The notes below the pieces were generated by a model. That model worked only from the letters and a program-made list of their open reading frames with translations, did not search any database and was not told the origin of the DNA. Below, one piece after another: positions 24,419 through 45,007 of a stretch of 64,000 bases of DNA. The translations under genes and the position numbers were made by a program. This DNA is from Chthoniobacterales bacterium (GTDB lineage Bacteria; Verrucomicrobiota; Verrucomicrobiia; Chthoniobacterales; DASVRZ01): the NCBI GenBank assembly GCA_039930045.1, contig JBDSQB010000003.1, forward strand, positions 124,001 to 188,000. Direction: 5' to 3'. Numbering within the stretch: position 1 is the first letter of the stretch; each line of letters starts with the position of its first letter.

Positions 24419-24588
24419 AGTTTTCAGTCTTCCAATAAACCACCCGGCCTGCATGGCAGGGCGTGTCGGCAAAAGACACGATTCCGCACCCGTCTCGCAA
24501 GCCAAAAATGGCAACAAAGTGTAACAAATCGTCTTTTTCGGGATATTTGGAATCCACGCCGCGATTTACCGCAGGATTTCCCCACGGT

Positions 24589-24756
24589 TTTCCTGAGCCC
24601 GAAAAGCCTTCGGAGAATCCTCCGCTCCCATTTCTGTCAGCGAAAATGCCTCCGGGGAAACGTCCGCACCCATTTTCACCCCCAGAAAACCGCCCGGAGA
24701 TCCGTCCGGCCCGATTTCTGCCCTCAGAAAAGCACCCGGAGAAGGGTCCGGGGCGA
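24589..24756. repeat. 42-bp tandem repeat, four units
   Basis: Four consecutive imperfect units starting at 24589, 24631, 24673 and 24715, each exactly 42 bp. A shared core is GAAAA, then a CCGG-like block, then TCCG and a trailing ATTTC. Because 42 is a multiple of three, frames stay open on the plus strand, which explains the apparent ORFs here. The period equals about four helical turns. Confidence 0.8.
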
Positions 24757-24852
24757 TGGACGACCCATTGGACGCCCCATTTGTAAGACGCCTGCTGTAT
24801 AAAAAGGTTGCCTGCCCACAGGCCGTTCCCTATAAAAGGCGCGGTTTTGCTG

Positions 24853-32179: not shown

Positions 32180-32620
32180 CTAAGGCACGATGGCCGGAGA
32201 AACACCCGTCGCAGCGACTCTTTGGCTCGCCCTGCGTTTCTCGATTTGCGCACGAATCTGTTCGGTAATCAGCTTCTGCAAATGCGGGCGGACTGCCTGG
32301 AAAACCAAGCCTAACAACGCAATGGCGAGCCCGCCTTTCGCCTTTCCCGCAGATTCTGCTTCGGCTTTGGTGCCTTTGCTGGCACCCGCTTTGATGTAAA
32401 TTTTTTTCTTCCGCGCTGGCAGCTTGGCCAGTACCAGTCCAACCAACGCTGCGGAACCCAGCCACGTGGTCAGATTGCCACGAATCGAAGTCTGTAGGCG
32501 GCGGCTGACATTCGCCGACGCTGCCAGGCTGCGTCCCGCATGGGCCAGACTGTGGCGCGATGCGGCGGCACGATCGGAGAGTTGTTTTAAACGGTGGTTG
32601 TAGTGCTCTGCTTCAGCCAT
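32180..32620 (-). CDS. YqjK-like hypothetical protein
   Basis: Basic protein of 146 residues, third gene after yqjD- and yqjE-like genes and overlapping the latter by 34 bp. It has a helical N-terminus, a hydrophobic stretch about 48-64 (TWLGSAALVGLVLAKL), a lysine-rich linker, a second hydrophobic segment (GGLAIALLGLVFQAV) and a basic tail. The layout suggests a small membrane-associated protein working with its two neighbours. I do not recognise a defined family beyond that. Confidence 0.6.
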   Translation of the reverse strand: MAEAEHYNHRLKQLSDRAAASRHSLAHAGRSLAASANVSRRLQTSIRGNLTTWLGSAALVGLVLAKLPARKKKIYIKAGASKGTKAEAESAGKAKGGLAIALLGLVFQAVRPHLQKLITEQIRAQIEKRRASQRVAATGVSPAIVP

Positions 32621-33012
32621 TGGGAGTCTTTCTTCAATTCAGCGATAGTCGCGGGGAACCAAGCGCCGGTGAGAGATTTTTTCGCAAAAAGCAATCCGCC
32701 AACGGTGATCAGCAGCATTGCAACGCCACTGGCGAGCAACGCCAAACCCCAGCCCCAGCCAGCTTTGACGGCCAGCACGTAGATCAGGCTCAAACTCAAA
32801 TAGAGAAACCCGGACGACAGACACATCAGCGCCACTGCAACAGCGATCAGTGCGGCGACCACTTTTTGGGAGGCTGCCTTGGACTCCAGCCCGGCCAATT
32901 CAAATCGAACCGACGCGTATTCCGTAATCGCGCGAAGGATCAATTGAAGCGACTCGATCAACCCAGGCTGACGGTGTGCAAACTCGCCCGGCATACCAGA
33001 ATTCGGGGCCAT
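32587..33012 (-). CDS. phage-holin-family membrane protein (YqjE-like)
   Basis: Protein of 141 residues with two adjacent membrane helices (VVAALIAVAVALMCLSSGFL and GWGWGLALLASGVAMLLITV), the signature layout of the YqjE/DUF1469 group often named phage holin family in databases. Despite the name these are chromosomal stress-related membrane proteins. It follows the YqjD-like gene by 24 bp and overlaps the YqjK-like gene, giving the same order as the Escherichia coli yqjDEK set. Confidence 0.75.
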   Translation of the reverse strand: MAPNSGMPGEFAHRQPGLIESLQLILRAITEYASVRFELAGLESKAASQKVVAALIAVAVALMCLSSGFLYLSLSLIYVLAVKAGWGWGLALLASGVAMLLITVGGLLFAKKSLTGAWFPATIAELKKDSQWLKQSTTTTV

Positions 33013-33036
33013 GTCGCAGTGTGTTTGCGAGTTGTC

Positions 33037-33453
33037 TTACTTGCGGAGAACGAGGCCGAGAACGAAACCGGCCGCCAGCGCGCTGAGCACAGATTTTGTC
33101 GGATTCGCGCGAATGTATTCCTCGCTGTCCTCTTGGAAGGTGCGGGTTTTCTCGCGAGCCTCCGTCCATTTCTCGGTTGCTTTTTCGCGAATCTCGCCGG
33201 CTTTTGCGGTCGCGGTTTGTTTGAATTCCTGCGCCTTGGCAGTGGCCGTCTCCTTCAACTCAGTCGCTTTCGCTGTGGCAGCTTCCTTGAGTTCGCCCGC
33301 TTTTTCAGTTGCGGCTTGCTTGAGCACACCGGCAGCCGACTTCAATTCGTTTGCAGCGGCGGCAGCGTGATCTTTGCCAGTTTCAAATTTGCTTTTGGCC
33401 TCGGCGGTGGCTTCAGGATCGAGGATGGGTTCGTTGATTGGATTGTTGGACAT
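33037..33453 (-). CDS. YqjD/ElaB-like DUF883 protein with 11-mer repeats
   Basis: Protein of 138 residues. Its middle is five 11-residue repeats such as AATEKAGELKE, AATAKATELKE and TATAKAGEIRE, an amphipathic pattern like group 3 LEA proteins. The C-terminus EYIRANPTKSVLSALAAGF plus VLGLVLRK matches the DUF883/YqjD membrane anchor with a glycine-rich helix. In E. coli YqjD is an inner-membrane protein that binds ribosomes in stationary phase. A strong Shine-Dalgarno AAGGAG precedes the ATG. Likely stress-induced first gene of a three-gene operon. Confidence 0.78.
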   Translation of the reverse strand: MSNNPINEPILDPEATAEAKSKFETGKDHAAAAANELKSAAGVLKQAATEKAGELKEAATAKATELKETATAKAQEFKQTATAKAGEIREKATEKWTEAREKTRTFQEDSEEYIRANPTKSVLSALAAGFVLGLVLRK

Positions 33454-33567
33454 AAAATTAGCTCCTTTTAACTTGGTTTAGTATGAAACTAAGCCGCGTC
33501 GGCTGCCGTTGGCAAGCTTCGACTGTCAATTTCTTTCAACGATACGCACATGATTGCGCACCCGGAT

Positions 33568-42327: not shown

Positions 42328-43554
42328 GTGAGTCTCATAGTCCAAAAATTCGGCGGCACATCCGTCGGCACCACTGAACGCATCCGCAACGTCGCCCAGC
42401 GCGTCCTCGCCACCCAACGCGAGGGCCATCAAGTCGTCGTCGTCGTCTCCGCGATGTCTGGCGTCACCGACAATCTCATCAAACTCGCCCGCGACGTTTC
42501 CACTTCGCCCACTGAGCGCGAGATGGATGTCCTCCTCGCGACCGGCGAGCAGACCACCATCGCGCTCACCGCCATGGCGATCAACGCTCTCGGCGGTAAG
42601 GCCATTTCCCTGACCGGTGCGCAGGCTGGCATCACGACCGATGGCGTGCATACCAAGGCCAAGATTTCCAACATCACCCCGCGTCAGTTGCATCAATATC
42701 TTGATTCGGGCCACATCTGCATCGTCGCCGGCTTTCAGGGCGAAACGGCGGAACGACTCATCACCACGCTGGGCCGTGGCGGCTCCGATCTCACCGCCAT
42801 CGCACTCGCGGCGGCGACCAAGGCCGACCTTTGCCAGATTTTTACCGATGTGGATGGCGTTTATACCGCCGATCCGCGCATTGTCCCGACCGCGAAAAAG
42901 ATCCCCGAGATCAGCTACGACGAAATGCTCGAAATGGCCTCCACGGGCAGCAAGGTCATGCAATCGCGCAGTGTCGAATTCGCGAAAAAATTCGGCGTCC
43001 TCTTCGAAGTTCGCAGCAGCTTCAACAACAACCCCGGCACCCTCGTGAAAGAAGAAACTATGAGCATGGAAAATGTCGTCATCCGCGGCGTCAGCGTCGA
43101 TCGCAATCAAGCCAAAATCACCATCACCGGCGTGCCCGATCATCCCGGAGTCGCCGCGCGGCTCTTCACCGCGATTGCCGACGCCACGATCAACGTCGAT
43201 ATGATCGTCCAAAACGTCTCCAGCTCCGGCGCGACCGATATTTCATTCACCGTCCACAAAGACGAACTGCCGAAGATCGAAACCACCCTGCGCCCGCTCG
43301 TCGCAGAGGTCGGCGCCAAGGGATTCACCGCCGTCGATGGCATCGCCAAGCTTAGCGTCGTCGGAATCGGGATGCGGAATCATTCCGGCGTTGCGGCGAA
43401 ATTGTTCGAGACCCTCAGCAAAGGCGGCATCAACATCCAGATGATCTCCACCAGCGAAATCAAAATCTCCGTCATCCTCGACGAAGCGAAAATCGTCGAA
43501 GCCGCCAACCTCGCCCACGAAGGCTTTGGCCTGGGCCAGTCAGCCGCCGCCTGA
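42328..43554 (+). CDS. lysC: aspartate kinase
   Basis: First step of the aspartate-family pathway to lysine, threonine and methionine. The 408 residues start at GTG 42328 with [13 protein letters not shown]. The kinase domain includes [21 protein letters not shown] and [15 protein letters not shown]. Two C-terminal ACT domains are present ([15 protein letters not shown] and [16 protein letters not shown]), the usual site for feedback control by lysine or threonine. No attenuator or lysine riboswitch was recognised upstream. Confidence 0.96.
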
Positions 43555-43628
43555 GTTTCAGGCGACTTCCATTTCTGAACTCGAATAATGGGTTGAAGAA
43601 GCCTCCGCTGCGCGAAAAGAAGTCTTGG

Positions 43629-43880
43629 CAGAGCGATAAATAAGGAAGTCAGAGCGTTAAAACTAGTAGTTAGATTGGTAAAACCTGGACTCAGACAGCC
43701 AAAACTTAGCGTCAGACCGCTAAATATTGGAGTCAGACCACTAAAACTTAACGTCAGATCGCTAAAACTTGGCGTCAGGCGGCTAAAACTTATAGGCAGA
43801 GCGCTAAATCTTAACGTCAGATTACTAAATACTGGCGTCAGCTTCATAAAATTGGCCAGTAGATGCCTATACATCGTCAG
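43629..43880. repeat. 21-bp phased tandem repeat array
   Basis: Twelve units with a strict 21-bp period (CAGA or TAGA starts at 43629, 43650, 43671, 43692, 43713, 43734, 43755, 43776, 43797, 43818, 43839 and 43860); the last unit is degenerate. Core is GTCAGAnCGCTAAAA, with A-tracts on the same helical face each two turns. Frames stay open on both strands because the period is a multiple of three: heptads of the type FSxLTxS on minus and VRxLKLx on plus. No spacers, so not CRISPR. Confidence 0.85.
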
Positions 43881-43963
43881 CAAATGGCCAACGACAGGCG
43901 GCATTTTTCTAAATCTGAGCGTCAGGCGATCCAGCTACCATGACCGCCTGCCATTCCAGCCCA

Positions 43964-44120
43964 GACCCGTAGGGTCGGCCTATCTATAGCCAGTCGAGTT
44001 CCAATGCATTCAGGTCCGTAGGACCGGCATGGGCCATTGACGACGCTTACCGATGCCGCACCTACGGCGCTCCGGCTTTTCTCCCGTCGCATTTTCTATA
44101 GATAGGCGACTCCTACGGAG
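43964..44120. repeat. palindromic multi-hairpin (REP/BIME-like) element
   Basis: Symmetric element of about 157 bp. From outside in: hairpin GACCC-GTA-GGGTC (43964-43976) opposite CTCC-TAC-GGAG (44110-44120); inverted repeats CCTATCTATAG (43979-43989) and CTATAGATAGG (44096-44106); hairpin GGTCC-GTA-GGACC (44013-44025) opposite GCACC-TAC-GGCGC (44058-44070); inner GGCAT/ATGCC. The stems differ but keep a GTA/TAC loop, which suggests selection for folding. Looks like a dispersed extragenic repeat. Confidence 0.75.
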
Positions 44121-44224
44121 CCCATGGCTATCCGCAGCGCTCGCTCCCGGCGGCGATTGGTCTTTATTGGTCAATCTTTCAAAAAATCCTGTTCAACGCA
44201 GCTGCCATGCTGCATTCTCCGCAC

Positions 44225-45007
44225 ATGACTGATCCTGCTTCTCCTTCCGACCCCGCTCCCGAACCCAAAAAACGCAAGGCCCGCGGCGTGCTGAGTACCC
44301 GGTTGCTGAAACAATTGACCTCCGATGAGGAAATCTTTCGCGCCACCATCGACGAAATGAGTGGCGACGCTTCGTTGACCACCAAACTCGCCCAGCATTG
44401 CATCGACCGCGATAATACCGTGCCGATTACCCCGGCGAGCCTCGCCGTGGTCCTCAAGCAAGTCGCCGACGCCCGTCAGGACGGGGCCAACACCACCTCC
44501 AAACGCGCCGCCCTCAACAGCATCACCGGTGGCGAAAACACAGATGCCAAGACGGCCATCGCCGCCATTCGCAACGTGCAAAGCCGGGCCAAGGGAAAGT
44601 ATGAAGAGGCCAATCCGGCGCGTCTTACCGCCTATTACGTGGGCAAACCGCTCAAGACCCGGCCGCAAATCACCCAGGCCGGCGCGGCGGTCTTCACCCT
44701 GCTGCGCACGAAGGACGATGACGGCCAACCGGTCGAGCCGCAGGACACTTTGCCGGGCTTCGACCAGTCAAAAATCGACCAGTTGGAGGCCGACTTGGGG
44801 AGTTATGGTGGAGTGCAGACGCGTCAAAGCGGAGCGCGCAAAGCCGCTAGCGATGGACGGCTGACGTTCGAGGAAAGTTGCGCCCAGGTGGGCCGTCGCC
44901 GCCGCAAACTGCAACTAGCCATCGATGCCGAGCGCCCTCACACCGACCCGAACAACGCCCCCCTCCGCACCCGCCTCGGTCTGCCCACTGACGGGACCGT
45001 TGCGTAA
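44225..45007 (+). CDS. hypothetical protein, basic tail
   Basis: Protein of 260 residues from the ATG at 44225 (an ATG at 44207 is possible). The first 25 residues are Pro/Ser/Lys rich; the middle is helical (TTKLAQHCIDRDN, ITPASLAVVLKQVADA), and the C-terminal part has CAQVGRRRRKLQLAIDAERPH and ends LRTRLGLPTDGTVA. I recall similar tails from uncharacterised Verrucomicrobiota proteins, but no domain is recognised. No signal peptide. Its neighbours are repeats and an AT-rich orphan, so it may belong to an accessory island. Confidence 0.6.
   Translation: MTDPASPSDPAPEPKKRKARGVLSTRLLKQLTSDEEIFRATIDEMSGDASLTTKLAQHCIDRDNTVPITPASLAVVLKQVADARQDGANTTSKRAALNSITGGENTDAKTAIAAIRNVQSRAKGKYEEANPARLTAYYVGKPLKTRPQITQAGAAVFTLLRTKDDDGQPVEPQDTLPGFDQSKIDQLEADLGSYGGVQTRQSGARKAASDGRLTFEESCAQVGRRRRKLQLAIDAERPHTDPNNAPLRTRLGLPTDGTVA

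Follow-up and report, generated by a model that had tools for sequence, protein, structure and literature searches.

Tandem repeats between bacterial genes normally come in many unit lengths. Among the described systems closest to the array treated here, the bacterial minisatellites (VNTR) consist of non-coding head-to-tail units of 10-100 bp placed between genes, with an interior more uniform than the edges and with higher-order periods; all of these traits recur in the present case. The heptameric SSRs (GGGAATC in Xanthomonas, GGGGAYT in Nostoc) are likewise intergenic, present at many loci and bound to one preferred step; heptameric repeats are over-represented in bacteria, and a polymerase-slippage hypothesis has been proposed for them (PMC4692102). 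The tandem repeats of Borgs share with the arrays described below a pervasive head-to-tail arrangement, occurring in and between genes (PMC9879509). Prokaryotic phased A-tracts and the 10-11 bp periodicity of prokaryotic DNA are comparable in having a period matched to the helix (PMC3431218, PMC7537859); in the second of these papers, periodic motifs that leave DNA unbent are reported to be under selection.

The array in question follows lysC in a stretch of 64,000 nucleotides, the whole of which is referred to as the window. On balance, it is best read as a non-coding minisatellite belonging to a genome-wide intergenic population that shares a 21-bp step, with a mutational origin favoured. 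The features concerned are, in window coordinates:

42328..43554, + strand: lysC, aspartate kinase (Pfam AA_kinase and ACT domains), upstream neighbour of the array
43548..43564, + strand: hairpin resembling a terminator, placed at the stop codon of lysC ahead of the array, a consensus match only
43627..43857, + strand: non-coding 21-bp tandem array of 11 units, consensus GTCAGANCGCTAAAACTTGGC (+ strand as written)
43858..43925, + strand: decayed continuation of the array, with traces in 21-bp phase (CTAAA at 43909, GTCAG at 43921)
43963..44122, + strand: dispersed element whose inverted ends lie at 43967-43989 and 44096-44118, separate from the array
44207..45007, + strand: downstream gene with no Pfam family (its start may be 44303)
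24571..24787, no strand assigned: another intergenic array of the window, with period 42 and between divergent genes, belonging to the same population though to another unit family

The reality of the 21-bp repeat, claimed in an earlier note on this DNA, is borne out by the agreement of strict register, lag-21 self-match and independent detection by TRF. Over 150-base stretches, the lag-21 self-match peaks at 0.71 in the lysC array against 0.43 or less elsewhere in the window, while the array as a whole reaches 0.685 at lag 21 and 0.67 at lags 42 and 63. The location given in the note was right, whereas its twelve units from 43629 are better counted as 11 clear in-phase units, with a period of exactly 21 bp, from 43627. 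A wraparound alignment, decayed units included, spans 43627-43925 with one base inserted and one skipped. Elsewhere in the window, a 33-bp repeat (33190-33340; self-match 0.68) lies within the ORF 32560-33471.

Conservation of the columns is uneven beyond uniform mutation (p 0.0005), the GTCAG and TAAA columns standing out. Positions 4 and 5 (AG) and 12-14 (AAA) are invariant across the first ten units. The TAAA tracts reported earlier are present in 10 of the 11 units (CAAA in the remaining one), but the GTCAG box, said to be constant, is exact in only 7 of the 11 and otherwise reads GGCAG (twice), GTTAG or CTCAG. Unit-to-unit identity is about 0.67 for neighbours and falls only to 0.58 for distant units; interior units are nearer to the consensus than edge units, both here and in the array at C3:77681. 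At lags 7 and 14 the 21-bp units do not match themselves, and the absence of a 7-bp sub-period sets them apart from the 7-bp unit of heptameric SSRs.

The genome comprises 3.52 Mb in 23 contigs. The family Verru_Chthon_A matches in it with E 2.8e-35, although under its curated cut-off, and has no match in 14 control genomes, which suggests Verrucomicrobiota. Of the genome, 843 kb (24%) was scanned in stretches: the window, almost the entire remainder of contig C3, contig C16 and the 20-kb ends of eight contigs. Arrays were detected by gap-free tandem self-match at lags 10-70, and a home-made score of codon usage served to call genes. Every intergenic array with a period of 10-70 bp in this sample, 17 in all, falls at 21 bp (13 arrays) or 42 bp (4 arrays), and the equation of the period with two helical turns, proposed earlier for the lysC array, extends to the set as a whole. 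None of these 17 arrays has an odd-turn period (31-32 or 52-53, for instance), and the intergenic DNA of the same sample yielded zero arrays in 20 rounds of dinucleotide shuffling. Arrays within genes of the 843 kb have periods of 12, 15, 18, 21, 24 bp and so on, in mixed multiples of three. Misclassification of genes and intergenic DNA is an unlikely source of the 21/42 pattern, because an array whose period is not a multiple of three disrupts the reading frame and would be scored as intergenic. When the lags were widened to 5-149, four further arrays appeared, with periods of 7, 9, 105 and 120 bp. The five top peaks of the summed intergenic autocorrelation are 21, 42, 63, 84 and 105, and a weak lag-21 residue persists after the arrays have been cut out. 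The density of about 20 arrays per Mb extrapolates to some 70 per genome. The gaps that hold arrays are divergent, convergent and tandem, about as gap lengths predict (p 0.16), with no orientation bias; a role as terminator or promoter was rejected, arrays occurring in all gap orientations alike.

In profile comparisons most pairs of arrays are unrelated in unit sequence, and therefore no single sequence is being read. The few related pairs are the lysC array with C16:65907, the window array at 24571 with G000:C3:33473, and two neighbours on C3. A two-unit pattern search with mismatches allowed located a second array of the GTCAG...CTAA family in the genome, with four units. This second array, the ribE array, occupies a 76-bp gap, directly after the stop of a gene that we take, from reading its translation, to encode riboflavin synthase (ribE) and before a convergent gene presumed in the same way to encode an M20-type peptidase. 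At C5:8351, GTCAGAG and CTAAAA occur together at a spacing unlike that of the lysC array. Units are dyad-symmetric in about 9 of 16 arrays (combined p 3e-9), though the lysC unit has no dyad (p 0.51). Across the same number of arrays 1099 mismatches stand against 28 indel bases, so that indels are rare in a set for which gap-free lag detection favours arrays without them. Several arrays show higher-order self-match at 42/63, and the halves of the 42-bp arrays are unrelated to each other, yet 42 is kept exactly.

In about 1.55 Mb from seventeen genomes of the class, 40 intergenic arrays were counted. Period 7 accounts for 16 of them and periods 21 and 42 together for 7, and the remainder are scattered; no fewer than three of those at 21 bp had been selected by pattern and are hence biased. 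In the relatives sampled, no other kind of intergenic array is as common as the heptamers, whose unit changes from array to array; examples are L138:13821 (G120), L132:8374 (G058) and L153:740 (G004), with AGGCAGT, GTCCATC and CAATCCG. In a member of the same order (G004), L113:9062-9813 is a 750-bp intergenic array of period 42 with GAAAAGGGA every 21 bp. In other families, pattern searches found arrays that are likewise long, degenerate, nearly gap-free and of 21 bp. The lysC gene is present in 37 of 37 relatives, the nearest of which belong only to the same order, and none of the GTCAG-type pattern matches obtained lies beside it, which is a weak test of conservation. A wide two-unit GTCAG/CTAA scan gave matches only in a Cyclobacteriaceae MAG and one Flavobacterium, and none in viral contigs or plasmids; no homology is claimed for these matches, because about two chance matches are expected from the pattern. 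The Cyclobacteriaceae MAG carries real 21-bp arrays (unit GTCAGACTTCTAACTATCTCT) on three contigs (L021, L023, L024), twice at a contig end. No paper on 21-bp arrays in Verrucomicrobia was found in the literature.

Several known classes can be set aside, in agreement with the earlier note: the units are contiguous, degenerate and without spacers, unlike CRISPR; they lack the dyad of REP/BIME, and the family occurs at two loci by pattern; and the neighbours, lysC and a gene without a Pfam family, include no replication initiator, as an iteron origin would have. The note had offered as its alternative a coding heptad repeat, that is, a short repetitive peptide from one strand, on the ground that both strands stay open. 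One frame per strand is indeed open (43675-43989 on +, 43380-43904 on -), but each of the remaining four is interrupted by 5-14 stops. The length of 21 bp is a multiple of three, and the array set has fewer stops (189) than column permutations (262, sd 21.5), for which TA avoidance may be another cause. Against a peptide, the codon scores of the two open frames are negative (per-codon values of -0.26 and -0.12, against a median of +0.21 and a 5th percentile of +0.10 in real genes), there is no Pfam match, none of the six frames is free of stops in the sister arrays C5:8351 and C3:104778, and the arrays with an open frame number 14 against 12.5 expected. No codon-position effect was seen in the lysC array, a weak test in which a coding control likewise showed none. 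The array is almost certainly non-coding, and the peptide reading extremely improbable. An element acting at the RNA level, with repeated hairpins serving as terminator, 3' stabiliser or sponge, would suit an array that follows lysC and another that directly follows a gene end; it is nevertheless highly improbable, since lysC already has its terminator-like hairpin ahead of the array, folding is unremarkable on the two strands (z -1.45 and -0.91), no Rfam match was obtained, and gaps of every orientation are used alike. It is also very unlikely that the array and the dispersed element at 43963-44122, with its inverted repeats, make up a composite mobile element. This element of about 160 bp has CTATAGATA as its inverted ends and carries short hairpins inside; 12 copies at E below 1e-10 are present in the genome, and those other than itself are 72-84% identical. 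At two loci, the window and C5:8351, a copy lies immediately downstream of a GTCAG-like array in the same orientation, but 4 of the 6 copies examined have no array in the preceding 350 bp or within 800 bp, and the gap of the ribE array is too small for the element.

A more substantial alternative is a helically phased binding ladder, in which an architectural or regulatory protein would occupy one site per two turns, the register being selected while unit sequences drift. It accords with periods of exactly two or four turns, with the absence of odd-turn periods, which are unable to hold phase over many units, with the rarity of indels, with the conserved AG and TAAA columns and with the dyad-symmetric units of about half the arrays. 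The strong intrinsic bending predicted in the earlier note is not supported: in a wedge-angle model with dinucleotide shuffles as the control, the predicted bend of the lysC unit is equalled by 18% of shuffles (rank 0.18), and the mean rank is 0.42 across 16 arrays (KS p 0.19), which places the lysC array and its 15 sister arrays within the shuffles. Nor does AA/TT phasing at 10.5 bp exceed that of dinucleotide shuffles, and the curvature beyond composition that marks phased A-tracts is not predicted for the lysC array. The ladder is further weakened by the want of a common sequence to bind, by the non-dyadic lysC unit, by a column pattern that neutral block duplication reproduces in 7-33% of runs, and by the 7-bp arrays of relatives, which are out of helical register; it is possible but unlikely. 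Less probable again is a bolder version, according to which the roughly 70 extrapolated arrays share only an exact two-turn register, either selected through an architectural protein that reads spacing and not sequence, or made by a dedicated 21-bp duplication process.

The 21-bp quantum may be mutational, through whole-unit duplication, or selected, through helically phased binding, and the minisatellite of mutational origin is the reading favoured here. Each array would have started as a local 21-bp duplication. Copying of one to three whole units at a time, by slipped pairing or unequal exchange, would then have lengthened it and made its units partly uniform. Block duplication would also give rise to 42-bp and higher-order periods, while edge units would decay. 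The step could stay at 21 bp if slippage or looping proceeds preferentially by full turns of the helix or by multiples of a heptamer, and no product or binding partner would be required. In simulations, single-unit duplication fitted the lysC array poorly (joint P 0.02 or less), whereas neutral duplication of one to three units fitted it, column pattern included (joint P 0.07-0.33). The mutational reading is favoured by this fit together with the 17 of 17 arrays at 21/42, the mostly unrelated units, the higher-order self-match at 42/63, the edge decay, the lack of orientation bias, the occurrence of 7- and 21/42-bp arrays in relatives and the published excess of heptamers with its slippage hypothesis. 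Rare indels, conserved columns, 42-bp arrays with unrelated halves and the missing 7-bp sub-period count against it, as does the fact that we know of no established slippage process with a 21-bp step.

A quantum of 21 bp, equal to two helical turns and to three heptamers, is unusually strict. The combination of a single step with mostly unrelated units separates period from sequence, and raises the testable question of whether bacterial non-coding DNA is shaped by helical register or by a slippage quantum; if the cause is only mutational, the arrays still offer a clean natural example of the way in which unit length gets set. In comparison with the known systems, minisatellites normally show many unit lengths per genome, whereas here all 17 arrays keep to 21 or 42 bp. 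Heptameric SSRs repeat one sequence with a 7-bp unit at many loci, in contrast to 21-bp units whose sequence differs by locus. Borg repeats have perfect units that come in many lengths, only 14-38% of the intergenic ones being divisible by three (PMC9879509), while those described here are degenerate and all multiples of 21. The 10-11 bp periodicity of prokaryotes is a weak genome-wide dinucleotide signal, whereas the present population consists of discrete arrays at exactly 21 or 42 bp.
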